From NCBI RefSeq assembly GCF_030867145.1, contig NC_134441.1:9222992-9286991 (forward strand): a DNA stretch of 64,000 nt, given 5' to 3'. How positions within the stretch are numbered: the first letter of the stretch is position 1; the number at the start of each line of letters is the position of its first letter. This stretch comes from Opisthocomus hoazin (lineage: Eukaryota; Chordata; Aves; Opisthocomiformes; Opisthocomidae). The translations under genes and the position numbers were made by a program. The notes beneath the pieces were generated by a model, which did no database searches, was not told the DNA's origin, and worked only from the letters and a program-made list of their open reading frames with translations. Shown here in pieces: positions 9,001 through 63,999 of this stretch.

Positions 9001-9031
9001 GCCCCCCCGTGCCCCCAGCACTCCTCCTTAC
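1..9031 (-). other. SFRP1: SFRP1 intron 2 (incomplete, runs off the window)
   Basis: This stretch follows the exon 2 donor (GT at 9031-9030, minus strand) and contains no recognisable exon. I looked on the minus strand for the netrin-like (NTR) exon 3, which in the family begins with a basic MKIKEVKKENG-type segment, and found nothing, so exon 3 lies beyond position 1. Contents are low-complexity only: a C14-type run near 5959-5972, an A-run near 6565-6576, and a two-copy 20-bp tandem duplication at 5341-5380. The many open frames here are GC-rich chance frames with no family resemblance. Confidence 0.8.
5341..5380. repeat. Two-copy 20-bp tandem repeat in SFRP1 intron 2
   Basis: Two adjacent 20-bp units sharing CCTGCTCTCCAAGGAGCT with one mismatch outside that core. 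Confidence 0.8.
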
Positions 9032-36279: not shown

Positions 36280-37330
36280 CAACGATCGCACGTCTATCAG
36301 ACACCTCAGCTGGGCGCAAGCCTGGCGCGAGTGCCGCTCCGATCCCGCCAGCTCCAGTTCCCGGGAAGACACCGGGGCAGCCAAGGCCGAGGGCGCGAGC
36401 GCTTGCGCAGGCAGCCCCAGTTCCAACCGCACCGCCGAGGCCTGCCCGAGGCCCTCCGGAGCCGCCCGGCCCGCCTGCGCTGTGCGGGGACACCGCGGGG
36501 AGGCAGCGCCGCCCGGGACCGACCGCGAGGCGGGGCACGTCGGGGGTAAGGGGGGTGGGGTGGGGCAGGGAGGGGCAGGGCTGTACCATGTACCGGGGGG
36601 GGAGCGTCACGCGGGCTATACCACGCGGTGTGCACGTGGGGTAACCATGCCCGTGATGGGAGGAGGAGTCGCCACGCAGCCAATGGGAGGCAGGCGGTGC
36701 GCACACATGCGCAGGCTCCGCCACTCAGCTCCTGTTCCCGCCCGGCGGAGCTGCGCCTGCGCGCTGCCGCTCCTCGAGGTTCGGTGAGGCGGTGGCGCGT
36801 GCGCCAAGCGGCACTTCCGCCCTTTCCGCAGCCCGGAGTCGTCCCGACGGTTTTGCGACAGCCGTAAGCGAGCGGCGGCGCCTGGCGGAGCGGAGCGGGC
36901 GGCGGCGGCGGGATGAGGCCGCAGCAGGCGCCCGTCTCGGGCAAGGTGTTCATCCAGCGCGACTACAGCGGCGGGACGCGCTGCCAGTTCCAGAGCAAGT
37001 TCCCGGCCGAGTTGGAGAACAGGGTGAGGCGGGGCGGGCCCGCTCCGGGCCGCCGGGGCTGGCGGCGGGAGCGGCGCTTCCGGGGCCGCTCGGTGTCAGC
37101 GCGCTCCGGCGCGGGGCGGCGTTCCCGGGGCTGCGGGAGGAAGCGCCGCGGTGAAAACCCGCGCGGGCGGTGCCGCCGCGCGCCTCTCCCCAGGGCCGGG
37201 GCCGGGCCGGTGTCCGCGCTGCCGAGGCGGGCATCGGCGGGGCCGGGCGGGCCGGCCGCGCCAGGGGACGAGGCCCGCATTGCTGTGCTGCCGTGCCCGC
37301 GCTCGGGAGCCGCCTCGGCGGGCTCTGGCC
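36280..37330 (+). promoter_or_regulatory. GOLGA7: GOLGA7 CpG island and promoter
   Basis: A GC- and CpG-rich island spans the first exon. Upstream of the ATG are a G-quadruplex-prone run at 36542-36580, several NRF1-like TGCGC words (about 36699-36716, 36750-36765, 36796-36804) and an ETS-like ACTTCCG at 36813-36819. There is no TATA box. This is the usual architecture of a housekeeping promoter; the transcription start is probably within about 100 bp of 36850. Confidence 0.65.
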
Positions 37331-43970: not shown

Positions 43971-44480
43971 CGGCTCTCCGCGCAGCACGGCGCCCGGCCT
44001 TTCCCCTCCGTCACGTCACTGCGTGGGCTAAGAGGGAAGTGTTCTCTAAGCCGCAGTCGTTTTGTCCACCTTGAATCCAGCTTTGCTGTTCAACAGCCTC
44101 CCACGGCTACACAACGCACAGACCGTCCTCCACGCTGCCGCCATTTTCTCGGGGCTGCAGCGCCTGCGCAGTGGGGCTCGCCTGGGCCGCGCGGTGCGGC
44201 GCCGGGCGCCTGCGCAGTGGGGCGGGCCGAGCAGGCGCGGCGGGCGGCCGTGGCGGGATGGCGGCGGAGGGCGGTGAGCGGCCGGAGGAGGACTCGGATG
44301 GCGGCAGCGAGGAAGTAGTGCTCACCCCGGCGCAGCTCATCCGCAGCCTGGAGCAGGTAGTGCGGGCTGGGGAGAGCGGCGGAGGGCCGGCCCCTGGGGA
44401 GATCTGGGGGCGGTGGCTGGGAGCCGGGCCTTGGGCTGTCTAGGGCAGACGCGGGGCAGCTGGGGGCCGAGCCCCTGGGC
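43970..44480 (+). promoter_or_regulatory. GINS4: GINS4 CpG island and promoter
   Basis: GC-rich island around the first exon. It holds a CRE-like TCACGTCA (44011-44018), a YY1-type GCCGCCATTTT (44137-44147), and an exact 18-bp direct repeat GCGCCTGCGCAGTGGGGC at 44160-44177 and 44206-44223, an NRF1-like word, the second running into a GC box. NRF1 and YY1 sites are common in promoters of replication and housekeeping genes; no TATA is seen. Confidence 0.65.
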
Positions 44481-46699
44481 TCGCCGGAGGAGGTGGGGAG
44501 GGCTGAGTTCCCGGGCTCTCCGCGGGCTGGGGCCTTTAGCCGGTGCATCCCTCGCTTCTGCTCACAGTGTGCCTTCTTTCAGGCCTGGCTGAATGAGAAG
44601 TTTGCTCCAGAGCTGCTGGAGAGCAAACCTGAGATCGTTGAGTGTGTTGTGGAGCAGCTGGACCACATGGTAGGTTCTGCTGGGCTAAAGCGGTGGTACG
44701 GGCAGGCCCTGGTTGCATGGCCTGGCAGATACTTGCTTGGGTCCCTCCTGCGGTTGCCAGGATTGTCTGCTCCTCTCTCCCTGAGATGTGGCTGTTCTGA
44801 GTACCTTTTCTGAGCTTGTTTTGGAGAGGGGACTGGGGGATACAAGGAAATAGTGTGCTTTGTGTCACCAAAAGCAGCTGCAGTCTGGTTTTGTGGGCCC
44901 TATGTACAAAATCCATCTTCCTCTCTGTTTCTCATTTGACATTTCAACCATTTAATTTCTCTTTTCCTTTCCTTGGAGGAGGCAAATCTGAAACGGGCAA
45001 AGAGAGGAGACTTGAAGGTCAGCGTTCACCGCATGGAGATTGAAAGGATCCGTTACGTGCTCATCAGCTACTTGCGATGTAGACTTGTGAAGGTAGTACT
45101 TGCTTGTGCTGCCTAGGGGATGAAGAAGGGTGACTTCAGGAGTGATTTTCGCCCATACAATGCCTCCTGCTTCAGGAAGGCAGTTGTAGTTAAAGCGCAC
45201 TCTCTGTGTCCTCCGAAGTGCAATCTGAAGGAATTAATTGCTTGGACACGCTTTTCTGTTGTGGTGGAGGATCACAGCACTGCTGTGAGTGTTTTCTTAC
45301 CTCGTCTAAGCACAGGATTGCACAATTGAATCCTAGCATTTTCTGCATGGGTCCTGCTACGTACACACGTGGTTGTGCAGCTTGGAGACCCCAGCTGACC
45401 GTATTGCTGTTAATTCGGGAGCAGATATTTGGCAGGCTGGTGGCTGCTGCACACACCTGTACAGCAGTGGACCGCTGCTGGCAGGGGAAGACTCTGGGGA
45501 GTGAGGGCTGTAGGCGCTGAACTGCTGGGAGAGATCTGTTTCAGTCTTTGGGATTTTGTTCCAATATCAGATAGAGAAGTTTTTCCCCCATGTACTGGAG
45601 AAGGAGAAGTCTCGAGCTGAAGGGGAGCCTTCCATTCTGTCACCAGAGGAGTTTGCTTTTGCTGAAGAGTGAGTATGCTTTGGATACATCTCCCTGCCTT
45701 TTTGTAGGTTATAGGACTCACCTGTGTGTTATACTGAACAATTCTTGAGACTGTTAGCCTTAGACAGGTTTGCAGTAAGAATCACAGGTTTCATCAGGAG
45801 GTTTCCTTTTGGACAAGGAAAGAGCTGAAATAAAATAACTCTGGTAACTCTGAGCCAGTTACCAGGGCAGACCATTAGGCTTGTCTCTGGCCATGCTGTG
45901 GGATCGGGAGATGTTGCTTGCTGGCGTTTTGAGTCAGTACTCTCCCTGGAAATTTGTATTTGATTGAACCAGTAAATGCTCCAATGATTTGTTTCAGGTA
46001 CATGGCAAACACAGAGACTTACCTGAAAAACGTGGCCCTAAAACACATGCCACCCAACCTGCAGAAAGTGTCTCTCCTGAAGTCTGGTGAGTACATCCAG
46101 ACTCCACGGTCATCAGACAGTTAGAGCAGCAGGGGTGTGGGGAAGCCTCTGGAAAGCACGAAATGCAAAGCCAGCGCCCTGTAGAAGCAAAGGTGACATC
46201 ATGACTGTGTTGAAATGCTGCCCTCCTGTGGGGTTCGTGGCTTGATGCCGCTGTCTGAGGACCATGCTGGCCCCTGCCATTGAGTCTTGTGTTGAGGCTG
46301 TGCACACTGCATCTGATCAGAAGTGTCTGGCCATGAGTTTGCTGTCCCTTGAGCCCCCCTGTTAGCTCGTTGTCTGCAGAGGGATGTACATGAGTGCTGA
46401 GTTTGTGCTCTGATTCCCTTATCTGCAGTTCCGAAGCCCAACCTGGACTCCTTTGTGTTCCTGAGGGTGTTGGAGCGTCAGGAGAACATCCTGGTCGAGC
46501 CAGAGATGGACGAGCAGAGGTAAGGGCGTAAGTAAGCTCATTGCACGAAAGCAGCGCAGGTTGCAGCAGCAGCAGCGGCAGCTTAGCTCCCGTCTCTGGC
46601 AGGGAGTACACCATCGACCTGGAGGAGGGCTCGCAGCATCTCATCCGCTACAAGACCGTCGCCCCACTGGTGGCCTCGGGAGCGGTGCAGCTCATCTGA
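44258..46699 (+). CDS. GINS4: GINS4 (SLD5), GINS complex subunit
   Basis: Subunit of the GINS tetramer, part of the CDC45-MCM-GINS replicative helicase. Seven coding exons: 44258-44356, 44583-44669, 44979-45092, 45571-45668, 45998-46086, 46429-46519 and 46603-46699; total 675 nt, 224 residues (human 223). Recognisable blocks are DSDGGSEEVVLTPAQLI, ESKPEIVECVVEQLDHM, an RIRYVL..YLRCRL helix, KNVALKHMPPNLQKV, and the C-terminal B domain ending SGAVQLI. All donors are GT and phases join without gaps. An in-frame ATG at 44171 would add 29 residues, but it falls inside the NRF1-like promoter repeat, so 44258 (11 residues before DSDGG, compared with 10 in human) is preferred. Confidence 0.97.
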
Positions 46700-46843
46700 G
46701 CGCCAGCGGTACGCACAGGGCGGCGCGGCGGGTCACGCGTGGGGCTGGGCAGGCCATGGGTCTGTGGGGCCGTATCCCCTTTGGACACAGGGTGGCTGGG
46801 CAGGGAGCAGGGCTGTTGGCAGGGGTACCCCTGAAAGTGTGCC

Positions 46844-46849
46844 AATAAA
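46844..46849 (+). terminator. GINS4: GINS4 polyadenylation signal AATAAA
   Basis: Canonical hexamer 145 bp after the GINS4 stop, giving a short 3' UTR of roughly 165 nt. Confidence 0.75.
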
Positions 46850-46869
46850 CCATCAGGACATCTTTCCCT

Positions 46870-49800
46870 CTGCTGATGCAGAGGGGCTTGTTGCCCCCAC
46901 AGCTCATCAAACTCCTAATTGCTTATGACATGCCTGGAATACAGCCAGCCTCCCATCTCTGGTGCTTCTGAGCGAGGGCGGCCTGTGTCACAGCACTGCC
47001 TCCAATAAGGCTTTGCAGCAGCCTTGCCACAGTCCACTTGGAGTCCCGAGGGACAGACGAGTGTCGCTGCTGCCTTGACAGGTCACAGGCTGATCTGACA
47101 GCAGACGTGGACAGAGTGAATCTATCTGCAAAGGCAAATACAGCCTTTGTAAATAGCAGGATGCTCTATTTTTAAACCTGCAGCTGGGCGTTTATTCCTG
47201 TACCAGTTTGGCACTGTTCTTTCAAGTAGGCTATCAGGTGGAAGCTGACTGACTGAATGGTGTGGCAACCAGCGATGTAAACTCCACCTTCCCCCATCAG
47301 CTTTGATCTTGTGCCAGGGTCTGTGCAACCCTGCATGTTGTGCAAGTGGCCAATTGCGCTGAGGTGAACTGGGGGAATACCTCTGCACCGTCTTTGCCAC
47401 ATGATCCACTGAGCAAAAAATCACCACACATAAAGATATTTGCTGGCAGAGCAAATCTTTGTTCTTGTAGAAGGAGCAGAAAGGATTTGGAACACATTAA
47501 GGATGGAAACTGCAGCTCAGAGCAAAGGGAGTGTCATGGGTGAGCAGGGAAGAGCCATAAGGTTGCGTGGGATGCTTAGCACCAGCTTGTTACCTTGCAG
47601 TGTGAGGGGTGAAGAGAGTGAAGAGTTCAACAAGCTTGTTCCCTTTGTCTTTCTGCCAATACCAGCTGGGAGGTGGCCCTGAGCTTAGGAATTCAGGGTT
47701 GCTTCTTGCCTCAGGTTTCTCTCTTGAAGCATTGTTATGTGGGAAACAGCAAGTCTATCCTTCCTTGGAAAGTTGCTGCCTTTGGGGAATGCAGGCTGCG
47801 CAGGCTTCGTTCCGCCCTGCAGCCTGTGTACCAGTGTGGATACAGTTGCGTCTGAACAGCCTCTTCTGATATGGCCAGAGAGGAGTTAATGCTGCATTTT
47901 CCTGACATTTTGGCAATAATAGCACCATCCTTGTAAAATATTTACCCTTGCCATCACAGGTGTCTGGGATTTGCCGGCAGAGTACGCCTCGATTTGGAAT
48001 TGCTGCCTGGACCTTGTACTGGTAATGGCATTTCTTGCCTTGGGCCAAGGAGCCAGGGCAGCTGCGTTTTCTCTGATCAGATTGCAAATGGTGCAGTCAC
48101 AATCAAAGCTTTGGAAATGCCAGACAGCATTTGCAGGTTTGTCACAAACCTCTTAACGAGAGCAACTGTCTCACATTCAGGGTGTTTGTGCCAGAGCCAT
48201 CGGGTCTTTATACTGCCCATGTAAAATTTGTGTTTCAGTCTGCCGTTCTGGTACGTGCACAGGCTTTGCATAAAGCCAATGCCAGAGCAGATCCTGCACG
48301 GAGGGTTTGAAGTGCTGCTATTTCACCTCTTGAAGTTCTGCACGTAGATCAAGTCTAGTGAGCAGGGTAAGAGACCTTGCTGCTTTTCCAGCTTTTTCCA
48401 GCCTGCTTCTTTGGACTGGCTGACTTCAGGGGAATTGCACCGCTGTTACAGCTAATCCTCCAGCTCAAGGCTGCCTTGGTCAGTGAACTCCAGAGCAAGC
48501 AGGGCCCTTGTACAGGATAGTCTGCGTGACAAGCACTGTGGAAGAACTCTGAGGGATTTTGTAAGCTTGTGGTGCCTTCATGTTGTTTAGAAATATGTTG
48601 GAGCATGAGGCTGGCAGAGCTTTCCCAGAACTGTCTCTTGCTGCAGGATGAGAACAGGAGTCTTGTTTTTGCCTTAACTTCTATGCTTTCTGTGTTACTC
48701 GTGTTGATTTCTATCAGGCCAGCACTCTGTATTTGATTTCTGCGTGCAGCTCTGTGTGTAGGGAGACTTGGATCAGTAGAACAAGCACTAAGTGACGAGT
48801 CAGAGGACGTCTTCTGGAAAGCTTCAGTGTGTAGCTGCTGGGATGCCTTATTTATGACCAGTGGCAGCCAGTTTCGCTAAAACGGAACAACTGTAATCAT
48901 GGGCTCAGGAGCAAGCGTCTTTCTGCTATGTGTGATCTAAAGACCCCCCCACAGAGTGAAGGGTTCTGGTACAGTTTGCGATTGTGGTTGTGAGGGTAGA
49001 AACAGTCAAACTCCCTTCTGCTGAAACAACTGCTGGGGGACAAGCAATTCCTTTGTGCTGGTCGCGCAGAGGAAAAGCTTCTCCAGCCCTGTGGACCCGT
49101 GTGCGCCTCCTCTACTTGGAGAAGCAGCCAGGGTGTCCCTGGCTGCCACAGCTGGGTGCCGGTCAGGTGCGTGGACAGACAGTGCCCGTGTTGCTGCGGG
49201 GCAGGGTCTTCCCTGCATGGTGCTCTGTGAGGAACAGCTAGGTGCTCCTCTGACGCTCCCCTTCCTCTGCCAGGGGTTGACACAGTGCATTTAGTAGTGT
49301 GAGTGGCTTTGTGTGTGGTTTATAGGGTTCCTAGTCAATCCATTTAGGTAAAGAAGATTCTTTTAAGTATAGACGTTAAGAGGAGGCTGGGTTTAATCCT
49401 TAGGAATCAGTAGCGCATACCTCTGCCAGCCCCGCTGTGGATTGTGCCCTGCCTGTGTCTACAGCCCAGGCAGCTTCACAGAGGTGACTGAAGCTCCCAG
49501 CCAAAGTCATTGTTAATCCGCTACTGCAGAAGCGTGCTGTAGAAGAGCTGCTTGGAGAATGTCTAGGTGACACGTCTGGCAGACTTTCTCCTTGGCCCTA
49601 TTAAGTTTGACTGAACGATTGTCCAGACAGCTAGTACTTGCCTCACCTCTGCATCTCACGTGGCTGCAGCAATGTGAGCATACGGGGCGCCTGTCCTTGT
49701 CTACCAGCTGAATCTTAACTGGATCTGATTGTTTCCAGGGTGCCATCAGTACAGCTCCTCTCTGGAGTCTGACAACTGGCACATGGCAACATCATCACAG

Positions 49801-51930
49801 GCCGTGCAGGATAATTGAAGGTGGCTGGTAGGCTGAAATCGGTCAGGCTTATAGTGAGATTCAGTTTTGCCATGCCTGAAAATGCTGCTTTCTGCTTTTT
49901 ATGTCCTTCCGTGACTAAATACCAGGACCCTTCTGGGACTGGATACTGCCTCACTGCTTCTGTTCTCTTTGTGTTGGGGTAAGGGGAAGCGTCTGCAACT
50001 TTGTGGAGGAAGTGATGCTTTTGGCTTGTACTTTTAGATGGAGGTGAAGACGCAGCAGTCCGTCCACCTTAATCTGTGCCTCTGGAAGAGAATGTGCAGA
50101 GTGAGAGCAGCTTTTCCATCTTCCATGGGGTCTGCTGTAAGCTTGAGCTCAAATACATCCCCTGTTCTCTGCTCCCTCCAAGGTGGAGATAGCTTGGGTT
50201 TACTGAGAGATTAGCTCTAAAAGCAAAGTAGGTGGATGGTGAAAGAGGTCACGAGGAGGGCACTGATGGTGAGCTGTGATTTCCCAGCCTGAGCCTGCTC
50301 TGCTCTCCCGAGTGCAGGAGAAAGGTGGGACAAGCGGTTTCATTGCTAGGAAAGCCTCTTTCGTGTCTGTGTCGACTCCTCCAACTCCCCAGAGTGGGGG
50401 GAATCGCACTGTCAGCCTGAGAGGATGTGGTGTAAGGATGGCTCCCTGAAAGCAACTGCTGAAAACTGACTGATCGCCCACTTCGGGTGTGCTGGAGGGC
50501 ATCTGTGCTTGTAAGCGTGTGGCGTCACCTAGTATGTAACCCGTCGCAGCAGTGCACAGGGGGACTGCCTTCCCTTGGGCCCCGGTCATATGTGCCATGT
50601 GGAGCGTGGAAAGCCTGTCCCTCATATTTTTCTGCGGGCTTTCTCTTCCACTGCCCTGGCTAACCCTGGCTGTAGGCTGCTGTGCTTCTGGGTGACGGCA
50701 GGTTTCCCAGAATTGAGAAATATCTGCGTTAGAGCTGGTATCAAGGGAGTTGTTCATGTGAAAGTCCTGTCTAGGAAAAGTAATCCAAAGCTGGTTCTAT
50801 TTCTTTTTTTCCTGGATATCCACAGAAAATTGATTGCAAATAAATAACATGTGTTTCAGTGAGCATCATTATTCCTTAGTAGGGATAACTACACAAACTT
50901 TCCTGCAGCATGGGGAAACAACTGGAAATTCTGCAGGAAAAAGTTTCAAGTATTCAGAGGTTCAAAAGCAGACAATTTGCAAGACCATGAGCAAGAGCCC
51001 TTAGTTCGGAGAAAATTAGGGGCAGTTTGCCGTCACAACTTTGTGAGATGTCGCTGGGGTTTGTCACTTGGGCAGCTGCAGCCATGGTTAAACCTTGTAG
51101 AGGTGAGTACGCCGTGGCTGATCCTCCAGCCGGCCTCTGCAGAGGGATGTGGTGCTGCCCGTCTCTGGGGCTGGCCGGAGAAACCGGCAGTGCTGCTTCC
51201 AGCTTGGGCCCGATCGTGGCCACCAGCCAGGGCTCCAGTGCGAGCAGCTTGTGGGCCCCGCAGGCCCGCCTGGTGCTGGGGCCATGCCCTGGAGCGCTGG
51301 GCGGCAGCGGGCATCTCCAGCTTCTGCAGGCCCAGCCTGTCGGGCGCTCCTGGTTCCAGGTCACCACTGACTGCTGCCCTGCTCCTCCCCGGGCCACGGC
51401 GCGGCTGCCACACGGCGGCTAGGGGACGGTGCCCCTTTGACTCTCTTGCTGCTGCTGTTCCTGCTGGCTGAGGCCAGGGCTGAACTGCAGATTTTTGCCA
51501 GCCAACTCTGGTTTGAGCTCACTCCCGGGCATCCCACAGGTGGTGTGTTGCACTGTGCTGGAGGTGGCGATGGAAAGCCAAGTACGGGTGATAGGTGGGT
51601 TGCATCATGAGCTGATGAAAATCTGTGCTGTCAGCAGGAATAATCAGGGCTGCTTAGTGTCAATGGCTGGGCGGCTCAGGGAGATTATCAGGCCATACGG
51701 GGCAGGGGTGAGCCGGTCTGGGTGACAGTCCTTTCTGTCAGGGAGTCACACGAGCTAAGCGGTGAGGGTGAGTGTGGATGTCGGAGACGCCACTGTGTCT
51801 CCTAACTGCGCAGGCGTGAGTGAGTTTCTTTTTCGGGGCAAGGAGCCAGGGTAGGAAACTTTTCAGTTAGATTTGCTGTTGGTAGGGGATGAGCCTGGAG
51901 TCTGGGGGTTTGCCTGTGCCCAGGCGCCCT
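46870..51930. other. Interval between GINS4 and the PPP1R3C-like gene
   Basis: About 5 kb without a recognisable exon, RNA gene or transposon. An upstream non-coding exon of the PPP1R3C-like gene could be here but cannot be identified from splice signals alone. Open frames at 50.9-51.5 kb on both strands are GC-driven. Confidence 0.5.
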
Positions 51931-52600
51931 GGGAGCAGCTGCGGACACGCACCCGAGAAGGGGTGTGCGAGCGCGGTTCGGACCTCGCACCCCTGCGGGC
52001 CGTGCCAGGGGAACGCGCTCCGCTGCTGCCTGGAGCTTCCTCCGGGCCCCGGTGCTGCAGGAAACGCCATCTCCTGAAAGCGCTTACGTTCTGGCGTTAG
52101 GTGCGGGGGGGGGGGGGGCGGTGCGGGACCCCCGGTGCCCGAGGGGGTGCGGGGCCCGCGGGCAGAGCCCGGGCGCGGGCGGAGCGCCGGGGGCACCCGC
52201 TCGGCGGGGCGGGGCAGCCACCAGCCCCCATTGGCCGCTCGGGTAGCGTCGCCGGCGCTGATTGGCTGCCGCCGCGGCCGCGGGGTGTCCCGGCCGCCGG
52301 CGCCGCCGGGGCTGCACTGGCGCGCGGCGCGGGGCGGGGTCCAGCCGCCGAGCGCGCGCCGCTGGACCCCTCCGGGCCCTTGGAGTGCGGCCGGCCACGC
52401 CATGGCCGTGGACCTGGCCGTGGACCTGGCCGTGCGGCTCTGCCTGAGCCGCTCGCCCCCCGTCCGCAAGCTGCTGAGCTCCTGCGAGGAGCTGCGGGGC
52501 GGCCGGGCGCGCAAACCCCTCCGGCCCTGCCTGAGCCAGCAGCCGAGCGCAGAGCCCGAGCGGCGGGACGGCACCAGGACCTCCAAGGGCCAGAAGAAGA
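51930..52600 (+). promoter_or_regulatory. PPP1R3C-like CpG island with twin CCAAT boxes
   Basis: GC- and CpG-rich island around the start codon. Inverted CCAAT boxes (ATTGG) lie at 52230-52234 and 52261-52265, 31 bp apart, in the same orientation, as in NF-Y-driven promoters. A GC box (GGGGCGGGG) precedes them at about 52205-52214. A run of 14 G is at 52105-52118. The transcription start is probably between 52280 and 52390. Confidence 0.55.
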
Positions 52601-53274
52601 AGAGAGTGGTGTTTGCTGACATGAAGGGGCTCTCGCTGACAGCTGTCCGCTTCTTCTCAAAGATCGAGGAGGACCTCTGCGATTTGCAGCACGCCCTGTC
52701 TGACCTCGCCTGCTTCCGCCCTCGGCTGCGGGACTCACGCCCAGAAGCGTGCAGGTACGTGCTGGACTTCCCACAGCCCGCCGCAGACTACAGGGCTTTC
52801 CGCAGCCGCCTACACGGCAGCCACGTCTGCCTGGAAAGCTGCCTGATCCAGGACCGAGCCCTGTCAGGGACCGTGAAGGTCAGAAACATTGCGTATGAGA
52901 AGAAAGTGATGGTCCGCATCACCTTCGATGGCTGGAAGAGCTTCCGGGACATCTCCTGCCAGTACATGCATAGCACGTACGGCTCAGCTGACACAGATAC
53001 CTTCTCGTTTGAGATTGCCCTGCCCAAGCCATCTGTCTCCCGCAGGGCCACAGAGTTCTGCATCTCCTTCCAGTGTGGACAGAAGACGCACTGGGACAAC
53101 AACTATGGGACGAACTACAAGATCTGCCACGTGGGCATGGTCCGCCCTCCATCCCATGCCGTGAAGAGTGCCAGCGGGGCTTGGGAGCATCTTGGCACCT
53201 CCCGGGCCGCCACCCTGGTCCTGTCCCACCTGCAGACCTGGCGGCAGTCAGAGACCCCAGCTCCCTATTGGTAG
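52402..53274 (+). CDS. PPP1R3C-like glycogen-targeting subunit of protein phosphatase 1
   Basis: Targets PP1 to glycogen, favouring active glycogen synthase. A single open exon encodes 290 residues. Visible features are an N-terminal VRLCLSRSPPV block that matches the PPP1R3C N-terminus (VAMRLCLAHSPPV) and not PPP1R3B; the PP1-docking RVVF motif at 68-71 within KKKRVVFAD; and a CBM21 carbohydrate-binding domain at about 130-242 with LDFPQP..DYRAFR before it, TFDGWKSF, DTFSFEIALP and the glycogen-contact WDNNYGTNY at 231-239. The frame is open upstream to 52135, but that stretch contains the CCAAT boxes; 52402 has a good context (GCCATGG) and aligns with the family start. Human PPP1R3C has 317 residues, and this copy has a shortened linker and C-terminus. 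The true human PPP1R3C lies elsewhere (10q23), so this is a paralog, not the ortholog. The exact symbol is left open. Confidence 0.93.
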   Translation: MAVDLAVDLAVRLCLSRSPPVRKLLSSCEELRGGRARKPLRPCLSQQPSAEPERRDGTRTSKGQKKKRVVFADMKGLSLTAVRFFSKIEEDLCDLQHALSDLACFRPRLRDSRPEACRYVLDFPQPAADYRAFRSRLHGSHVCLESCLIQDRALSGTVKVRNIAYEKKVMVRITFDGWKSFRDISCQYMHSTYGSADTDTFSFEIALPKPSVSRRATEFCISFQCGQKTHWDNNYGTNYKICHVGMVRPPSHAVKSASGAWEHLGTSRAATLVLSHLQTWRQSETPAPYW

Positions 53275-53814
53275 GAAGGCCGCGCATGGAGAGGCGCAGG
53301 TCCCTTCCGTGTCCTGACTGTGGTGCAGGGCTCTTTGGGGAGGCATCACCCACAGAAGACGCTGCTCACAGTTTTGTTAGCTCCTCGCTGCGTCTGGCCT
53401 GCTGCTTCACAGGTAGCTGCAGGCTCTGCAGACCGCTGGCTCCTGCCGCGGGGCTGGCAGCTGCTGCTCGGTGTAACTCCTGCCCGGTTCTGGAGGCAAC
53501 GCTGTCGCGAGGGTAGGGGAGCAACAAAGGAACGGCTGCAGGCTGTGGACTGCGTCCGTCTGTCAGCCGCTGCCGGCGGGAGCCCACGCGTGTGGGCTGC
53601 GGGGGTCCTGCTGCTGCCCAAGTGCCTTGTGCGGTGCCACCGGGGAGGGGGCATGCGGTGCTGGGGCCTCAGCACCGCTCCCGGGCTGCGGCAGCAGTGC
53701 GACAGCAGCCGCCCCGCCGGCCTCCTGCTGCGGACGCACACTGGGGCTGCGGGGCCACGGGCCGGCCGAGCGTTGCGGGGCTGCCGCCGGTCGCTGCTGC
53801 TGTAACGGGGAGTT

Positions 53815-53820
53815 AATAAA
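53815..53820 (+). terminator. Polyadenylation signal of the PPP1R3C-like gene
   Basis: AATAAA 541 bp after the stop codon, followed by GTGACGG and then TGTGCGTGCCTGTCC (GU-rich in RNA). The gene ends here, directly before the pyrimidine tract and the GPAT4 promoter. Confidence 0.7.
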
Positions 53821-53851
53821 GTGACGGCGCTTCACGAGTGCTGCCTGTGCG

Positions 53852-54074
53852 TGCCTGTCCCTGTCCCCCTTGTCCCTGTCCCTCTGCCTCTCCCTGTGCC
53901 CCTGCCCGTGCCTCCCCCTCTCCCTCTGCCCCCTCTCCCTCTGTCCCTCTTGTCCCCCTCTCACTGTGTCCCCCTCTCCCCGTGCCGCTGCCTGTCTCTC
54001 TCCCTCTGTCCCCCTCTCCCTCTGTCCCCCTTGTCCCCCCTCCCCGTCCCCCTCTCCCCGTCCCCCTCTCCCCG
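53852..54074. repeat. Polypyrimidine low-complexity tract
   Basis: About 220 bp of almost pure C and T on the plus strand, built from irregular CTGTCCC and CCCTCTCC units. The minus strand is G/A-rich with many GGGG runs, so triplex or quadruplex formation is possible. It separates the PPP1R3C-like 3' end from the GPAT4 promoter. Confidence 0.85.
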
Positions 54075-54201
54075 AGCCGCTGCCCCGGGACGGGCGCCCT
54101 CTGTCGGGCGGCCCGAGGCAGCGGTGGGCTCCTGCGGGCGCGGCCCCGCGGGCGACGCGCTGACGTCAGCGCACGCGGGGCGGGGGCGCGCACGGCACGT
54201 G

Positions 54202-54239
54202 GCTGGGGCGGAGCCGGGGCCCGGCGGCGGTGGCGGCAG
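54202..54239 (+). other. GPAT4: Likely 3' end of the non-coding GPAT4 exon 1
   Basis: The donor at 54240 (GGCGGCAG/GTGAGTGTG) is a near-consensus U2 donor in the CpG island. It would splice to the acceptor at 56444-56445 that begins the ATG exon, giving one non-coding plus twelve coding exons, as I recall for human GPAT4. The 5' end of the exon is unknown; the start given here is just after the E-box. Confidence 0.5.
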
Positions 54240-54251
54240 GTGAGTGTGTGA

Positions 54252-54310
54252 CCGGCCCGGCCCGGCCCGGCCCGGCCCGGCGCCCCCCCCGCCCCCCCCC
54301 CCCCCACCCC
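54252..54310. repeat. (CCGGC)6 followed by C-runs
   Basis: Six exact CCGGC units at 54252-54281, then C8, G, C14, A, C4 to 54310. It starts 12 bp after the putative GPAT4 exon 1 donor. The minus strand is quadruplex-prone. Confidence 0.9.
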
Positions 54311-56445
54311 AGCTAACCCGCCTCCCCGCGCGGGTCCCGGGCCGCTGCTCCCGCCGGGGCCCAGGTGGCCGGGCAGGGCTCGGCCCGGCCGCGGACCGTT
54401 AGCCGGGCGCCCGCCTCGGGGAGCGCGGCCCCCCCTCCTCCCCCCCGCGCCGGGCGTGGCGGACCTGCGGCCACCGCCGCCAGCCCCGGGGCGGAGGAGC
54501 GGAGCCCCTGGCGCTGCCCGGCGCGGCGCCGGCCGGAGCTCCGCCCGCGCTCCCCGCGCGGACGCCGCGGCCGAAGGTCGCCGGGCCGAGCCCCGGCCCT
54601 GCCGCCATTCGCCGCGCGCGTGGGCCGTCCCCCGGCGCACGAGGCCGCTGGGCCCACCCCCCGCCCGGGGCGTCGGCGGCATCGGGCCGGCGCGAGCCGC
54701 GGGCAGCGGGCGGGGCGGCGCGGCGCGCGCTGGCCCGGGGCCCCTCACGGCGGCTGCTGGCCGCGCGTGCTGCCTGTCGCGAGGCCTGCCCGCGACCGCG
54801 CGACGGCGGAGGGTGCGGTGCCAGGGCCGCCCCTTCGTGCTGCCGGGGCCCGTCCCGCTCCCGCCGCTCTGCCTGCGCCGGCGGCAGCTCCCGGGACTGG
54901 GCGCGCGCGGACTGCGTGGCCCCCGCAGCGCCGGTGGGAGCCCGGGCCCCGCTGGTCAGCGGCGCTGAGCCGGGGAGCGAGGGGCTCCCGCCGGCCTCTC
55001 CTCGGTGCCGGTGACCTCCCGTCCTCGGGCTGACAGTCCGCGGGCGGTGACGGCGCTGTCCGGGGGGAAGCCTCCCCAGCAACCTCGGCTCCCTTCGCCG
55101 GCCCCAGCCGGTGCTGCGGAGGCCGTCCTCCCCCGGCAGGCTGCCAGGACTGCGGTTCGACCTTTGACTGGTCCCCGTGCTCCAGCGAGTTCCTCTGTGG
55201 CTCGTCATCAGCAGTAATTCTCCCCTTGGGCGAGCGTCCTGCCCCGCCGAGCTGCCCGGTGTGACTGCGGGGCGAGATGTGTGCAGGCAGAGGAAGTGAT
55301 TCCTCCCCAGGAACGCGGGCACCGGGCTGGCTCAGTGCTCTCGGATGCCTCTGAAATGAGAGAGGCTACAAGGTCTTTGTCATGAGGAGGGTTTTTCTGT
55401 CACTCCATTGGCTCCTTTCCTGTACTTGGGATGTGATTGCAGCATCCCGTGCTCTAGGCGTGGTTCTTGACAAGTCTGCTCAGTTGGAGGTGTGAATGGT
55501 ATGAAAATACAGGATGAGTGGCAGCAGGGCTGATAAGTCTGTGACAGCGCCAGGCTGTAGCTGGAGTGCCAGCCTGGGTCTGCTGTGTCTCGGGAGCTGC
55601 TCTGAGCGATGTGACCTCAGCCCAGGCACTGCCTTCCAGGTTTCAGAGCCCACTGTCCCTGGCCTCCTGCCACCCTCGCCGAGCTGACATCTCTCTGAGC
55701 TGCATGGCTTGCCTGACTTCGGTTTCTCTTCCTTCCACTAGTGCTGGTGGCATGCGAGTGCCTCGTCTGCCAGCAAGCCAACTCGCTGTTTGAAGAGCTT
55801 TCCAGGGACACCGGCTTCATTCGTCTCTGTAACGACCCTTCAGCGTGAGTGGATGCCAGGGATCTCCAGAATTAAATTTGTTCCAGGCGTCATGCAAAGG
55901 TCTGCACCAGTGCCTGTGTCCTCACGGAAAGAACAGTCATAGCTCCGCATACAGTAGGCTCCTGCAAGTGCCAGCTCCCTCGATCTCCTCCAATGCAGGC
56001 TCAGGGATGGACTCCACCTTGTCCCCGTGAAGAGCCCTTGCATGCTCTCAGCAGCCAGAAGGGGATTCTGCTGCCAGCTTCTTCACAAGCTGCCCCACAG
56101 CAGGACTTGCTCAGCAGCGCCTTGGGAGGATATCCATTCACGCGGCTGTGTCACTGCGGTGCCCGCTGCGCACCCATGGAAGAACCCATGTGTGTGTTCT
56201 GTCGTCTTTGAGCTCCTCAGCCCACACTGTCTGAACTCACCTGGGCTCCTGGCAGACTGTTTGCTTGTTTTCCCAACTGCTCTCCCTGATCCTGTTGCGT
56301 TCCCTCTCTCGCAGAGCCCAAAAAGGTTGTGAACTTTGGAATGGGGTCTGTGAGCAGGCTGTGGACTCAGTGCGTGCGTGGGACTGTTGCTGAATAACAG
56401 GAGGACTGGTTAATCGCTACGGGCAGCCTTTCTGTCTGGCTGCAG
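54311..56445 (+). other. GPAT4: GPAT4 intron 1 (5' UTR intron)
   Basis: The first 850 bp continue the CpG island, and its long open frames on both strands reflect base composition. The remainder is ordinary intron sequence. A possible alternative exon is at 55742-55844. Confidence 0.55.
55742..55844 (+). other. GPAT4: Possible alternative GPAT4 5' exon
   Basis: A 103-nt segment has a good acceptor (pyrimidine-rich TCTCTTCCTTCCACTAG) and a strong donor (CAGC/GTGAGT). In one frame it is open throughout, and spliced to the acceptor at 56445 that frame continues without a stop into the GPAT4 ATG. There is no transcript evidence; a short upstream ORF (ATG at 55752) is also present in another frame. 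Confidence 0.25.
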
Positions 56446-56473
56446 GGCGCCAGCCTTGCCTGAGCCCTGCACC

Positions 56474-59400
56474 ATGTTCCTCCTGCTCCCCTTTGACAGC
56501 CTGGTTGTTAATCTCTTGGGAATTTCCATAACTGTCCTCTTCACTCTGCTTCTGGTTTTCATCATTGTGCCAGCAATTTTTGGAGTCTCTTTTGGCATCC
56601 GCAAGGTTTACATGAAAACATTATTAAAGATTTTTCAGGTAAGTCACGTTTTCAGGATTTCCTGCATGTTTACAGGGGTCGTATCAAGCGTGGTCGTGCT
56701 AGGAAGAGGCTTCTGCTCCTCAGCAGAGCACTGCAGCTGACTCGGGTGGGAGGTTGGTTTGCTGGTGACATGTGCTGGTGCCACATGACCCATTTGGGTC
56801 ATCTCAGCCTAATGCAGTTTACTAGACCTCTGTTCAGGGGTTGTTTTTGCCCTGTGATTAATCCAGTAGGTCTTCAAGTAAAGTAGTAGGATAGTGTGGC
56901 CCGTGGGTATGCAGTAGTACAGTAGGATCTGTCGACATGCTGAGAGAGGGTGTGTGCTCGGATGGGTTAATGTCCCAGGCAAGGCAGAGTGCTGTTACAG
57001 TTCGATGTGGAAAGAAGCCAAAAGGGGTGTAGGGTGTGGTGGGGAGGGACAAGACTGCAGTCAGCTGGCTGCTCTTCCCCAGCGCACGTTTGGATGAAGC
57101 AAAAGTGGGGGTAAGGCAAGCCCCGAGTGGTCTGTGGCCAGAACCCTCAGCACCCCTCGTCCCGGAGTGCCGCCTGCGTATCTGCTGAGCCCAGCAGCCA
57201 TGGCTGGGCCTGCAGCCTCCGAGGATGGTCAGCAGCCCTTGCTGACCCTCTTGGCAGAGGGAGGCCAAGTGGAATTTTCCAACCTGGGGTCATGCGGTTC
57301 CCTTGCCTGCCTTTGGCAGACTAATTTTGTGGGCTTTCTCACAGCCAACACCTCTTCTTGGAGCAAGTCCCTGGTAAGAGCAGAATTTTTGCCAAACTCA
57401 TAGAAGATAAAGCCTACACCACCCTACACTGGCAGCCCAAGGAAAAGGGGCCCTGTGCTTGATAGGGAGGTTTTAGGCTCTGAAACATGGAGTTCAAGCT
57501 GCTGAAGGGACAGCAACTGCCGTTAGAAGAGGACTGGTCTTCCCCAGGAGTACCTCTGTACTGGCTGGCTTGGGAAGGCAGCCCTGGAGCTTGCAGCGTT
57601 CAGCTCTTTCAGCTCTTGAGTCCTCCCAAAAGCCTCGGGCGGGAGTGGGAAGACCCTGGGGTTTGTGCGCTGCTTTGTTAACACAGATGTCTGAAGACCT
57701 GACTTCAAATTTAGTGACTGAACAGGGGGAAAAAAATTAAGAAAAAGTTTGGTTTGTCTGAAATCGACCTTTTCACCTTGGTGGTTTTTGTTTTTTCTTT
57801 CTTTGATTCGGGAACGTTTAATGTCAACACCTATTTTGGCGTTTAATTTTGAAACTATTTTTCTGAAAGGACTTTGAAGTCTGTCTCACCTATTATCACA
57901 GAATCTTTGTGGTGGGAGAGAGGACCAGTCTGGCAGATTTGGTGGAAAATTTACTCACTAGGTCTGGTCATCAGAATTGCGTTTCTGGGGAGCGTTATTC
58001 ACCCCAAAGATTTTCCCAGCTCTGGAGGGCAGTGTTGTGAACCTAGCCCAGACAGGCAGCACTCACGTCAGGCAGCTTGCTGGACAGAGCCAGAGCTGCG
58101 GGGCTGGGATGGGAGCTGCATATCTCTGATGAGGGGGGAGACCTGCCTGGTGCTTCCCGGGTGGGAGTCTGGGATTTCTGCTGCCGCAGTCAGGACAGTG
58201 ACGTGTGCTGGGCTTGCGAGGAGCACCTTCTCCATGGGCTGCCCAGCTCCTGCTGGTTGGAGCTCCTCGCCCAACTTCTCCTGGGATGGCAGTGTCTGGA
58301 CAATCTTCTACAGTCCTGCAGTTCCTCCTGCTGGCAGAGGAGGCTGCTGGATGAACCGGACACTCTGTATGCAGTTAGCATGCCCACATTGCTGCCTCCT
58401 GATCTGATGCTGGGATGGGCTGGGACTGGGATGCCAGGAGTTCCCAGCGGCTTCCCGTTCTTCACAGATCCCTGATGGAGCAGCTAGCCTGGAGCAATAA
58501 GCATACTGTACACAGGTCCTCCTTTAGCAGGGTGTTCACCCAGGCCTGTGTAATGCAGTAGAGTGTGAGCCTGAGAGGGTTACTTGGAGCAGGCAGGAAG
58601 ACTGGCCAGAAATCCAGCCTGCAGTTTTTGCTTTGAGAATTAGCTGGGAGAGCTTTCTGTGGATAACAGGTAGTCTGGGCACAGGATTTGGCAGCCAGCT
58701 GCTGGAGAGCTGTCTGAGGGTGGTTGCTGCTGCTGGTTTGGAGTGACTGGTGAGCTGTGAACAGCAGCAGCTGTTAGCTGAATCAGGGAAAGAAGGATCC
58801 CATCCTGATATCAGCCTGGTGTTTTTAGCAGCAGCAGCCTGAAAACACAGTCTCTGCTTTGAGCTTGGAAGAAATGACGGTTGAAAACTAAGCACTGGTT
58901 CCATGCTGGGCTTCCTGCGCTGTGATGCGGACCACCCCAGCAGAGGCACGGTCCACCCAGTTGTGCCGTGGCAGACCAGGGGCCGCAGAGCCCATGGGAC
59001 ACAGAGGCTGCAGAGAAGCTTGCTGTGCCATCTCACCACTGAGCACCCTTTTTCCCTCTGGCACTCCGTGCTTCCTGCTGGGGCTCTGCTGTGCACATCA
59101 TGGCTGTCCTGTGCCAGTGCTAGTCACCTCCCTGTCAGTCCTCTCGTCCCACTGCAGACAGATCTCTGCGGTAAAAGTGTTCCTCCCAGGCCAGTCTCTG
59201 CTTCCACCTCGGTTCATTTGTGTTCATCACTCACTCTTTCAGTTCTGTACGGAAGCTTCCTGCTTTAGCCCCGTCTTCTCCCCTTAACCATGGTCTTTCC
59301 TGGAAGTCGACTGTAAAACATGGGTAGTACGAAGCAGAGCTACAGACCTTGCGAATGTTGCTTGTCATGTGTGTCTCTTGCAGTGGGCAACACTGAGAAT

Positions 59401-62400
59401 AGAGCGTGGGGCCAAGGAGAAGAACCATCCATTATACAAGCCCTATGTCAATGGTAAGATCCTGCTGTGCATGGGTGCATACAAAGTTCAAAGTTCTTTA
59501 CGGGAGATGGGGTAAATGTGCTCTCTGAGCAGCCGAGGTACGCTGGGAAGCCTTTTCTGTGTAGGTCAATTGGAGGGAGATACTGAGAGGTCCATTTGCG
59601 AGGAAGGGGAGGGAAGCTCCCAGGGAGTGCTTCGTTTCTATATGGTTGGGAGGACTGGTTTGTGCCCATCCGGACTGGAGAAAGGAAGGGGGCCCTGTGG
59701 AGGACAGGTGAGTAAGGGCCTTGATTCTGAGCTCTCTGAGTGGGCAAGTCGCACTTTGCTCAGAGCTGCCTGCTGCGTGTTGCAGGTATCATTGCAAAGG
59801 AGCCAACATCACTGGAAGAGGAGATCAAGGAGATCCGCCGGAGTGGCAGTGGCAAAGCCCTGGACACCCCTGAGTTTGAGCTCTCAGATATCTTCTATTT
59901 CTGCCGCAAAGGCATTGAGACCATCATGGACGATGAAGTGACCAAGAGGTTCTCAGCTGAAGAGCTGGAGTCCTGGAACCTGCTCAGCAGGACCAACTAC
60001 AACTTCCAGTACATCAGCCTGCGCCTCACTGTACTCTGGGGACTGGGTGTGCTCATCCGCTACTGCTTCCTCCTGCCCCTCCGGTGAGTGCTGCTGCGGG
60101 AACCCGCCTGCTGGGACGGTGCGGGTGGCCCGTTCCCACTGCCGCAAGTGCAGACCCTGCTCAGGATGATCTGGAGGGACAGGCTGCGTGATGAGTAGGG
60201 CCTGTGGCCTGGCTTTGCTAGCATGTAGCTTCCCTCTTTCTGCAGGATAGCCCTGGCGTTTACTGGCATCAGCTTGTTGGTGACTGGTACTACAGTGGTG
60301 GGGTATTTGCCAAATGGAAGGTGAGTTTGTTTTTGAGGGAGGAGGGCATGGGGAGCCCCCAGTGCAGTTTGAGACCTGGTAATCCTGGAGTTTTCCTGCG
60401 AGGCCTGTCTGTTCTGCCTACTGCTGACACGGCAGGCGGTCCTGGCATCTGTAGCCTCTCAGGAACAGACACCCTGTAATTTTAAACAAAGGGCCTAGAT
60501 GTGAGCACTAAGCCCGTGGCAGAACGCTCAGGCCTGGGCTCTGACAGGAGTAAGAACAGAAAAGAGCAAAGGCCAAAGTTTGTCTGTGACGAGTAAGAAT
60601 CAGTTGTCATAAGCTGACGGCAAAACCCAGGACAAGGTGTGTTTCTGTGGGAGAGATGTGAAGTCTCGGTTGGACCTCGTGGCATGGGGCAGCTGGGCTG
60701 AGTGGCACCGTTACAGGGGAGACTGTAGAACTGGGAGGTAGTGATTCTCTCTCCTGGGCTGCAGGTGTAAGGAGTTCCTGAGCAAGCATGTCCACCTGAT
60801 GTGTTACCGGATCTGTGTGCGTGCTCTCACAGCCATCATCACCTACCACGACCGGTAAGGAGGCACTGTCTGCGTCAGGGTGTCCGTTCCCACGGGCTGC
60901 TCCATGCCGTGCCTCGTGCAGGCCTCACGCTTCGTTCCTCTGTCCTCATCTGTGCCTTTGTTTTGCATTTAGAGAAAACAGACCCCGAAATGGAGGCATC
61001 TGCGTGGCAAATCACACGTCTCCTATTGATGTGATCATCTTGGCCAGTGATGGCTACTACGCGATGGTAAGGTCTGCACTCCGGTTCCCAGGGCCTGGCC
61101 ACATGCGTGGTGGGAGCAGCAAGCACATTCATGGAATGGTTTGGGTTGGAAGAGACCTTTAAAGGCCATCTAGTCCAATCCACCTGCCGTGAGCAGGGAC
61201 ATCTACCACTGGACAGGTTGCGCAGAGCCCCATCCAACCTGGCCTTGAATGTTTCCAGGGATGGGGCATCTCCCATCTCTCTGGGCAACCTGTGCTAGGG
61301 TTTCACCACCCTCACTGTAAAAAATTTCTTCCTTATATCCAGTCTAAAACTCCCCTCTTTTAGTTTAAAGCCGTTACCCCTTGTCCTATCGCAATAGGCC
61401 CTGCTAAAAAGTTTGTCGCCATCTTCCTTATAGGCCCCTTTTAGGTACCGAAAGGCCACAGTAAGGTCTCCACGGGGCCTTCTCTTCCCCAGGCTGAACA
61501 AAATTGCATGGGACAAGGAGTGGGCAGCAAGAGGCTTTTGAGCATGCAGAACTACTTTTCCCTGCATGACACCACAGAGCACTCTCGGACGCTGTGCACA
61601 GATACTCTCTGGTGCATGGCTTTCCAGCCAGCTTGGCCTGGGACTCAGAGCACCAGGGTCTCTGGGCACTGCTTTGCAAGTAGAGCTCTGGGCTTTGCTA
61701 TCCATGGCAGAGCAAAGCGCTTCCCTGGCTGGACCTCCTGCAGTGTGGAAAGCTCTTGGGCCTTGCTACATCTGTCCTTCCAGTCAGACCCGGGACTTTT
61801 CCTCTCAGCCTTTCCAGGGCAGGGGTAGAAAGATGAACCTCAGCTTGGCAGCGAAGCTAGGAGCGGCCTTGGCCTCCACGTGTCCCCAGGTCTTGTAACT
61901 TGTGTCTTCTTGCCCTGTTCAGGTGGGTCAGATCCACGGAGGACTCATGGGTGTGATACAGAGAGCCATGGTGAAAGCTTGCCCCCACGTGTGGTTTGAA
62001 CGCTCTGAGGTCAAAGATCGTCACCTCGTTGCCAAAAGGTGTGACAGTTGCTGGCTGCAGGCTGCAGGGGAGGGCCGGAGGCTGGGAGAGGGCAGGGGCT
62101 GCTCAGTTCCCATGGGTGAGGATGCTGCCTTGCCTCGTGGGTGCTGGGAGACTGTGCCAGTGTTGCTGGCACCCAGATGGTCCCCAGTGACTGCGGAATA
62201 AGGACTGTATGCTGTGAGGGTTGCCAGCGGTAGTTCCTGTGCCCTGTGCTGATTGGTGACACTCTTCCTTTTAGGCTCACAGAGCATGTCCAGGACAAGA
62301 GCAAACTGCCCATCCTTATCTTTCCAGAAGGTGAGTTGCGGAGCAAGGCCAGACAAGCACCTGATGGAGAGGGCACATTGGGACAGCACCGCATCTCTGT

Positions 62401-63999
62401 TCCTTCCCTTCTTATGCAGCCAAGGGCCTTGAGACCCTTCACTGAGACAAAGGGGACATTGCATCTTTAGAGCTGACTGCACCCAGAATGTGGAAGTCAG
62501 CTATGTCCCAGTGCCACACCCTGTGCACACAGAGAACAGGGTTTGGAGTGAGGGTAAGGGGGCGGTTGCTGGGTGCCTGTGGCCTAGCCATTAGGTGCAT
62601 AGCTTAGACTTCTGAGCTGGCTTTGCTACGGGAACTTGAGAAGATTGTGCTTGCATCTTGCAGGAACCTGCATCAACAACACATCTGTGATGATGTTCAA
62701 AAAGGGGAGCTTTGAAATTGGAGCCACAGTTTATCCTGTAGCCATCAAGGTATGAGAAGGCAGCCACTCTTACAGCACAAGTAGCTCTCTGCGTGAGAAC
62801 TGTCTTGGCAGCCCAGTCTTGGCACTGCTGGGTCAACAGCCTGGTCTGAGGGCGTGGAGAAGCTGAGATCACTCTGTAGTGCTCTGGGAGGGCTGGCCTG
62901 TAGCTGGGCTTGGGGTGGAACTTGGAGCCTTGGGGAGGATGCAGCCACTGCCTGACTTCCATGAGCTCTTCTGCCTCTGTAGTATGACCCACAGTTTGGA
63001 GATGCCTTTTGGAACAGCAGCAAGTACGGCATGGTAACCTACCTCCTTAGGATGATGACCAGCTGGGCCATTGTCTGCAGTGTCTGGTACTTGCCCCCAA
63101 TGACCAGGCAGGTAAGTAAGGTGAATGTGGCCTATCTGATCTGCTGCCTGGTTGGCCCTTTGCTCCTGCTGAACAGTGTCATTTTGCCGCAGCCCGAAGA
63201 GGACGCTGTCCAGTTTGCCAATCGAGTGAAGTCAGCCATTGCCAGGCAGGGGGGCCTTGTGGATCTGCTCTGGTGAGTCCAGGCAGGCTGCTGTCTTCCT
63301 GGTGCCAGGGTTCCTGGGTCCTGGTGTGTGCTTGTGGGCTGTAGAGCTAAGTTTGTGTCGTGTTGGGCAGAGTAGGCCTATGGAGAAGTGGAGATACGTC
63401 TTGCCTGTGACCTCCAAAACTGGTCTTCTGTAGCAGGGACCAAAGTCTTTGCTTCTCCTGTGTGTTTTGGGCACCAGGGCTTCATTCTGTGATTCCAGCT
63501 TGCGCTGAGATGCCCTGGTTCTGACTTGATGCTGCTCAGCAAAGTGGGTTGAGCTTGGGAACTCTGTTTTTCAGGCACTGAGATCTTCAGAGCCTGGGAG
63601 GGAGAGGGTCTCTACGGGCAGTCTGCTGTAGTGGTATCAGAGCAGCTCACGCTTCTGACAGAGCTGTCCTGTTGAGCACAGTGCAGGGTCATGGGTGCAG
63701 CTCCTGGCAGAGCAAGGGGTGAAAGTAACTCCCCTTGGGGGCAGTTGGTCTGCACTGTGCCCTGGCAACATCAGGTTCAGGTGTAGCTGTCTGGCTGTTG
63801 CAGGAGCTCTGACCTGCTCCGAGCAGCCTCAGATGAGGTTTCAGACAGTGCACGCCTGCAGCTTCTCTGATGATACGACTCTCTCCCTAGGGATGGAGGA
63901 CTGAAGAGGGAGAAGGTGAAAGATACATTCAAGGAGGAGCAACAGAAACTCTACAGCAAAATGATTGTAGGCAACCATGAAGACCGGAGCCGCTCTTGA
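56474..63999 (+). CDS. GPAT4: GPAT4 (AGPAT6), ER glycerol-3-phosphate acyltransferase 4
   Basis: Acylates glycerol-3-phosphate to lysophosphatidate at the ER and lipid droplets, the first step of glycerolipid synthesis. Twelve coding exons: 56474-56638, 59384-59453, 59786-60083, 60246-60320, 60765-60854, 60973-61066, 61923-62038, 62275-62330, 62664-62749, 62983-63111, 63193-63272, 63891-63999; total 1368 nt, 455 residues (human 456; one residue fewer in the [10 protein letters not shown] segment). The N-terminus [17 protein letters not shown] is a hydrophobic ER-targeting segment; further membrane helices lie at about 155-200. Acyltransferase motif I is HTSPID (H247, D252), FPEG is at 319-322 (motif III), and VYPVAIKYDP follows. 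The acidic-linker [20 protein letters not shown] is typical of GPAT4. All introns are GT-AG and phases join exactly. The ATG exon probably starts at 56446 with 28 nt of 5' UTR. The 3' UTR is outside the window. Confidence 0.98.
56639..59383 (+). other. GPAT4: GPAT4 intron 2 (first intron within the coding region)
   Basis: About 2.7 kb with GTAAGT donor and TTGCAG acceptor, phase 0. No repeat or embedded gene recognised; a T-rich patch lies near 57780-57860. Confidence 0.8.
61125..61506 (-). mobile_element. Old CR1 LINE 3' fragment in GPAT4 intron 6
   Basis: On the minus strand, a CR1 3' end with the GGTTTGGGTTGGAAGAGACC word (plus view, 61137 onward) and no CACAGAAT repeat tail. Degraded ORF2 C-terminus is visible in two frames: [30 protein letters not shown] in one, then [18 protein letters not shown] in another, so a stop and a frameshift separate them. 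It differs in sequence from the copy at 28 kb and belongs to another, older CR1 subfamily. It lies wholly within the intron 61067-61922, antisense to GPAT4. Confidence 0.88.

Follow-up and report, generated by a model that had tools for sequence, protein, structure and literature searches.

A Predicted PP1 Glycogen-Targeting Subunit of the PPP1R3B/PPP1R3C Type Encoded between GINS4 and GPAT4 in Opisthocomus hoazin

PP1-targeting subunits are the products of "at least seven genes", as stated in the consulted part of PMC4762924, which reviews glycogen metabolism in humans. The 64,000-nucleotide stretch of the Opisthocomus hoazin genome analyzed here, referred to as the window, raises the question of whether a bird carries a gene of this kind in addition to those of humans, and of how such a gene would be related to PPP1R3C (PTG) and PPP1R3B (GL). 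An earlier note, made from the DNA letters, had described a complete 290-residue glycogen-targeting subunit with an RVVF motif, a CBM21 domain and a PPP1R3C-type N-terminus, had placed it between GINS4 and GPAT4, and had called it a PPP1R3C paralog.

The coding frame and its surroundings

A frame of 290 codons without internal stops occupies positions 52402-53274 of the forward strand, from the ATG at 52402 to the stop codon at 53272-53274. Pfam identified a CBM_21 domain at residues 137-241 of the encoded protein (E 3.3e-32), overlapped by a weaker CBM53 match (E 2.8e-09). The top match among all PDB sequences was human PPP1R3C/PTG (7qm2_B, E 1.2e-57, 198.9 bits, residues 58-245), followed by human PPP1R3B (2eef_A, E 4.8e-46, 160.8 bits, residues 114-245). 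The intact frame and these matches bear out the earlier description of a complete PP1 glycogen-targeting subunit, here encoded by a single exon and of the PPP1R3B/C type. Counted from the preceding stop at 52075, the frame spans about 398 codons from stop to stop. When positions 52101-53900 were shuffled 2000 times by mononucleotide, a forward-strand frame of at least 400 codons arose in 6 of the shuffles, so that frame length is weak evidence for a gene in this GC-rich region; gene status rests on homology, and the length of the frame proves little. At the start of the coding region a 12-bp unit is repeated exactly in tandem (2.7 copies, 52403-52434, forward strand) and encodes an N-terminal AVDL-AVDL-AV repeat; this perfect repeat is a candidate length polymorphism. 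The sole NCBIfam match, to rubisco at E 0.1, was due to chance. A search for relatives of the protein in viral contigs found none, and structure prediction of the protein alone gave a mean pLDDT of 39.7.

The start codon has the context GCCATGG. No in-frame ATG occurs between the stop at 52075 and position 52402, nor any ATG, in whatever frame, within 52150-52401. A CpG-rich stretch covers the start codon (51900-52699, forward strand); its two 400-base blocks have CpG observed/expected ratios of 0.87 and 0.85 and GC contents of 0.78 and 0.73. It contains GGGCGG boxes at 52116, 52177, 52207 and 52332 and ATTGG boxes at 52230 and 52261, TATA[A/T]A being absent from it, and we read it as a putative promoter. 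Downstream, the AATAAA at 53815-53820 of the forward strand is the sole A[A/T]TAAA between about 53200 and 54400 and is likely the polyadenylation signal. It precedes by about 420 bases a GTGAGT near 54240, which may mark the end of a putative noncoding first exon, on the 5' side, of GPAT4. With promoter, polyadenylation signal and GPAT4 exon as predicted here, the locus would read as a compact single-exon gene. C-rich simple repeats occupy 53850-54075, between the AATAAA and the GPAT4 start region. A scan of the window for bacterial promoters and terminators, which is irrelevant to this type of genome, returned nothing.

Neighboring genes were located by tblastn, using as probes provisional sequences of the human SFRP1, GOLGA7, GINS4 and GPAT4 proteins. 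The order found was SFRP1 on the reverse strand (9030-14969, two coding pieces, probe residues 1-208), followed on the forward strand by GOLGA7 (36913-39693, four pieces), GINS4 (44288-46696, seven pieces), the PPP1R3-type gene and GPAT4 (56474-63996, ten pieces). Nineteen of the 23 exon pieces are 76-100% identical to these human probes; the other four, whose alignments extend into intron sequence, are 60-69% identical. When ten pieces were searched with Pfam, the expected family was found in eight, five times above the curated cut-off (Fz in SFRP1, Erf4 in GOLGA7, SLD5_C twice in GINS4 and Acyltransferase in GPAT4) and three times below it. The remaining two, of 27 residues in SFRP1 and 100 residues in GPAT4, had weak unrelated matches only. 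Gene order and Pfam families thus confirm the placement between GINS4 and GPAT4, which are the nearest genes detected on either side with these four probes; human PPP1R3C presumably adjoins TNKS2, and genes can move. SFRP1 probe residues after 208 had no tblastn match in positions 1-9030, and the rest of this gene probably sits outside the window, behind a long intron.

Two further features lie farther upstream in the window. One is a short CR1-like 3' end at 27990-28100 (near 28.0 kb), the only place where the tail pattern matched; it is of a type found in bird genomes and fits a bird. The other is a tRNA-His(GTG) reported by ARAGORN at 32546-32625 on the reverse strand. Since no RNA family reached the Rfam gathering score anywhere in the window, the latter is unlikely to be a standard tRNA gene.

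Predicted docking, carbohydrate-binding and regulatory residues

The residues of PTG that contact PP1, bind carbohydrate or are ubiquitinated are named in the consulted part of PMC9582199, and we aligned the bird protein with them. Two features by which PPP1R3 proteins are recognized were found, namely an RVxF motif with flanking groove residues and a CBM21 domain with the residues of carbohydrate site II. The docking motif, RVVF (residues 68-71; 52603-52614, forward strand), lies inside a PTG-like groove segment (residues 67-85), and 13 of the 16 PP1-contacting residues of PTG are identical (K83, R84, V85, V86, F87, A88, D89, K91, L93, L95, T96, A97 and F101); I98 is replaced by Val, H99 by Arg and V100 by Phe. 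The glycogen-binding domain, delimited by Pfam, PDB matches and alignment, covers residues 119-245 in the PTG alignment (52756-53136, forward strand). Its site II has five of six residues identical (N177, E181, K182, Y203 and D214, with F180 changed to Tyr) and its site I six of seven (R187, W193, C235, W246, N248 and N253, with Y196 changed to Phe).

Judged by its sequence, the protein most likely recruits PP1 to glycogen. PP1 held there would dephosphorylate glycogen synthase, which would be activated, and phosphorylase, which would be inactivated, and glycogen would accumulate.

Its control may differ from that of the human proteins. The X of RVxF is a phosphorylated serine in GM and GL and a valine in PTG (PMC9582199, consulted part); it is Val in the bird protein, which, like PTG, should therefore not release PP1 through that phosphorylation. 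Among the three ubiquitinated lysines of PTG named in the same source, K174 alone is kept, with C and R at the positions of K132 and K176, and PRLR stands opposite SALK of PTG in the alignment. The last 28 residues (53188-53271, forward strand) match PTG at 8 of 28 positions and GL at 5 of 28, as compared with 15 of 28 between PTG and GL (with provisional human tail sequences); a C-terminal block common to the two human proteins has diverged here. Because the C-terminal region binds phosphorylase, synthase and phosphorylase kinase, according to the consulted part of PMC4762924, substrate coupling may differ. Since it keeps one of the three lysines and has a diverged tail, the protein should not be turned over, or choose its substrates, in the way PTG does. 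The RVxF valine, the lysines and the tail together suggest a regulation of its own; the two missing lysines, the change of SALK to PRLR and the tail could also reflect relaxed constraint.

Place among PPP1R3 proteins and possible origin

We compared the bird protein with its human relatives. The human PPP1R3 sequences match the PDB letters exactly for PTG 74-260 and for GL 32-93 and 105-236; the sequences of PPP1R3A, D, E and G, and of B and C beyond the stretches covered by the PDB, are provisional. The unrooted tree comprised the bird protein and human relatives and was built from the core alone (residues 66-245, 180 columns). It separated the bird protein, B and C from A, D, E and G (support 98.7/98; FastTree 0.988; provisional letters of A, D, E and G), and core identity of the bird protein to the latter four is 0.30-0.33. 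Membership in the PPP1R3B/C subfamily is, on these sequences, firm.

Within the trio, the three possible orders differ by 0.07 lnL. The best order, bird protein with C, has support of 7.1/51 (FastTree 0.625). For the pairings of bird protein with C, bird protein with B, and B with C, p-AU was 0.61, 0.41 and 0.41, and bp-RELL 0.34, 0.30 and 0.36, the last marginally ahead; both come from 2000 resamplings, which the program warns are few. Any two members of the trio are 0.93-1.11 apart by ML distance. Core identity is 92/178 (52%) to PTG and 84/177 (47%) to GL, and that between PTG and GL is 89/177 (50%). At 24 of the 177 shared core sites the bird protein has the residue of PTG but not of GL, at 16 that of GL but not of PTG, and at 21 it departs from a residue common to both. 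CBM21 (119-245) is 65/127 identical to either, and PTG and GL also score alike over this domain (157 bits for 7qf7_A, residues 119-245, and 160.8 bits for 2eef_A). Other segments are closer to PTG than to GL: the N-terminus (21/60 vs 16/50), the PP1 segment (17/21 vs 14/21), the linker (10/30 vs 5/29) and the C-terminus (11/45 vs 5/45). The N- and C-terminal regions, which lie outside the tree, thus lean to PPP1R3C.

These results modify the earlier view of the gene as a PPP1R3C paralog. With a core identity of 92/178, against 76-100% in 19 of 23 neighboring exon pieces, the gene is no close copy of PPP1R3C, in agreement with the earlier note; the three trio orders and the equal CBM21 identities do not establish it as a duplicate of PPP1R3C specifically. 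A grouping with PPP1R3B, one of the outcomes named in the earlier note as refuting its view, is nearly equal in likelihood to the pairing with C in the tree with human relatives.

Could the gene simply be the PPP1R3C ortholog of this genome, evolving fast and situated beside GPAT4, instead of an extra copy? PTG is its best PDB match, RVVF and the N-terminal RLCLxxSPPV are common to it and the provisional PTG sequence, and the flanks lean to C. However, a core identity to PTG about equal to that between PTG and GL is low for a plain ortholog, given how well the neighbors are conserved, and MAVD and KPLRPC are GL-like features. Chicken literature, as far as consulted, names PPP1R3C, which does not settle the locus meant. 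We consider such an ortholog unlikely. A fast-evolving copy of PPP1R3B or PPP1R3C, duplicated or retroposed in sauropsids or birds only, would agree with the uninterrupted coding frame and with the near-equality of the trio orders, but the distance to human B and C is about that between B and C, and the SFRP1-GOLGA7 neighborhood fits duplicated 8p/10q blocks. The coding region of other PPP1R3 genes, too, is essentially a single exon, which makes a retrocopy unnecessary as an explanation; repeats of at least 25 bases in 46697-56473 were C-rich repeats only. This origin, too, seems improbable to us. The intact frame might also belong to a decaying gene no longer under selection, which would be in keeping with the long frames among the shuffles of this GC-rich sequence, the diverged C-terminal tail and the perfect 12-bp repeat in the N-terminus. 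Against it stand the PP1-docking and glycogen-site residues, almost wholly kept, the orderly start and polyadenylation context, and GC contents of 0.58, 0.50 and 0.83 at codon positions 1, 2 and 3, and we regard decay as very unlikely.

The explanation that we favor, and hold to be probable, is a working PP1 subunit of the PPP1R3B/PPP1R3C (GL/PTG) subfamily that forms an old third branch, derived most likely from the two vertebrate genome duplications. The gene would appear to be an old third sister of PPP1R3B and PPP1R3C, an extra copy that humans seem to lack. Human SFRP1, GOLGA7, GINS4 and GPAT4 lie on 8p11, and no PPP1R3 gene is known among them; SFRP5, GOLGA7B and PPP1R3C are presumably on 10q23-q24, with PPP1R3C adjoining TNKS2, and PPP1R3B presumably adjoins TNKS on 8p23. 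If these positions are right, PPP1R3B/TNKS and PPP1R3C/TNKS2 would be one duplicated pair and the bird gene a third copy. The argument from paired blocks (SFRP1/GOLGA7 versus SFRP5/GOLGA7B) stands on the same human map positions. A third genome-duplication copy fits the near-trichotomy and the SFRP1-GOLGA7 neighborhood, and such an origin is likely.

A wider reading is tentative and, in our view, rather doubtful as a whole: birds, and perhaps reptiles and fish, may have retained in the SFRP1-GOLGA7-GPAT4 block a third ohnolog of the GL/PTG type, which would lack the GL/GM phosphorylation switch, would largely escape the ubiquitin control exerted on PTG, would alter substrate coupling through its tail, and would have been lost in mammals. 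If true, a glycogen activator lost in mammals would bear on how birds handle glucose and glycogen, which is unusual. Malin is the ligase in the ubiquitin control of PTG. Should orthologs in birds and other vertebrates be confirmed, models of PTG regulation derived from mammals, among them that of the ubiquitin control linked to Lafora disease, would not be directly transferable to birds, and glycogen control outside mammals would have one more PP1-targeting subunit than the number given in PMC4762924.

Comparison with known systems

The gene is expected to be annotated already in bird genomes as PPP1R3C-like. Among the literature matches listed, no title or abstract start described the GINS4-GPAT4 locus of birds or its loss in mammals, and PPP1R3, GPAT4 and GINS4 are absent from the main text of two word-searched gene-loss papers. 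Chicken papers, in the parts consulted, name PPP1R3C, and in one instance each PPP1R3B and PPP1R3A, giving no locus. Among vertebrates, zebrafish has a gene whose name denotes a second type of PPP1R3C: the consulted part of PMC12819173 lists ppp1r3c2a, glossed as "regulatory subunit 3C", as decreased in hypoxia. It may be the ortholog of the bird gene or a renamed fish-specific duplicate of PPP1R3C; fish papers, as far as consulted, also employ the names ppp1r3ca and ppp1r3cb.

The bird protein shares with human PPP1R3C/PTG (PDB 7qm2, 7qf7) the RVVF motif with its Val, most PP1 contacts, nearly whole sites I and II and the RLCLxxSPPV motif, in a core identical at 92 of 178 positions. It differs from PTG by H99R and V100F, by the loss of K132 and K176, by PRLR opposite SALK and by its diverged tail. 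The human PPP1R3C gene presumably lies elsewhere. With human PPP1R3B/GL (PDB 2eef, 5zt0) it has in common a CBM21 identity equal to that with PTG, the MAVD start, KPLRPC and a basic residue at the H99 position. It differs from GL, which has Ser in RVxF, by its Val there and by a tail identical at 5 of 28 positions; at two site I positions where GL has Ala and Ser, the bird protein has Cys and Asn, as does PTG.
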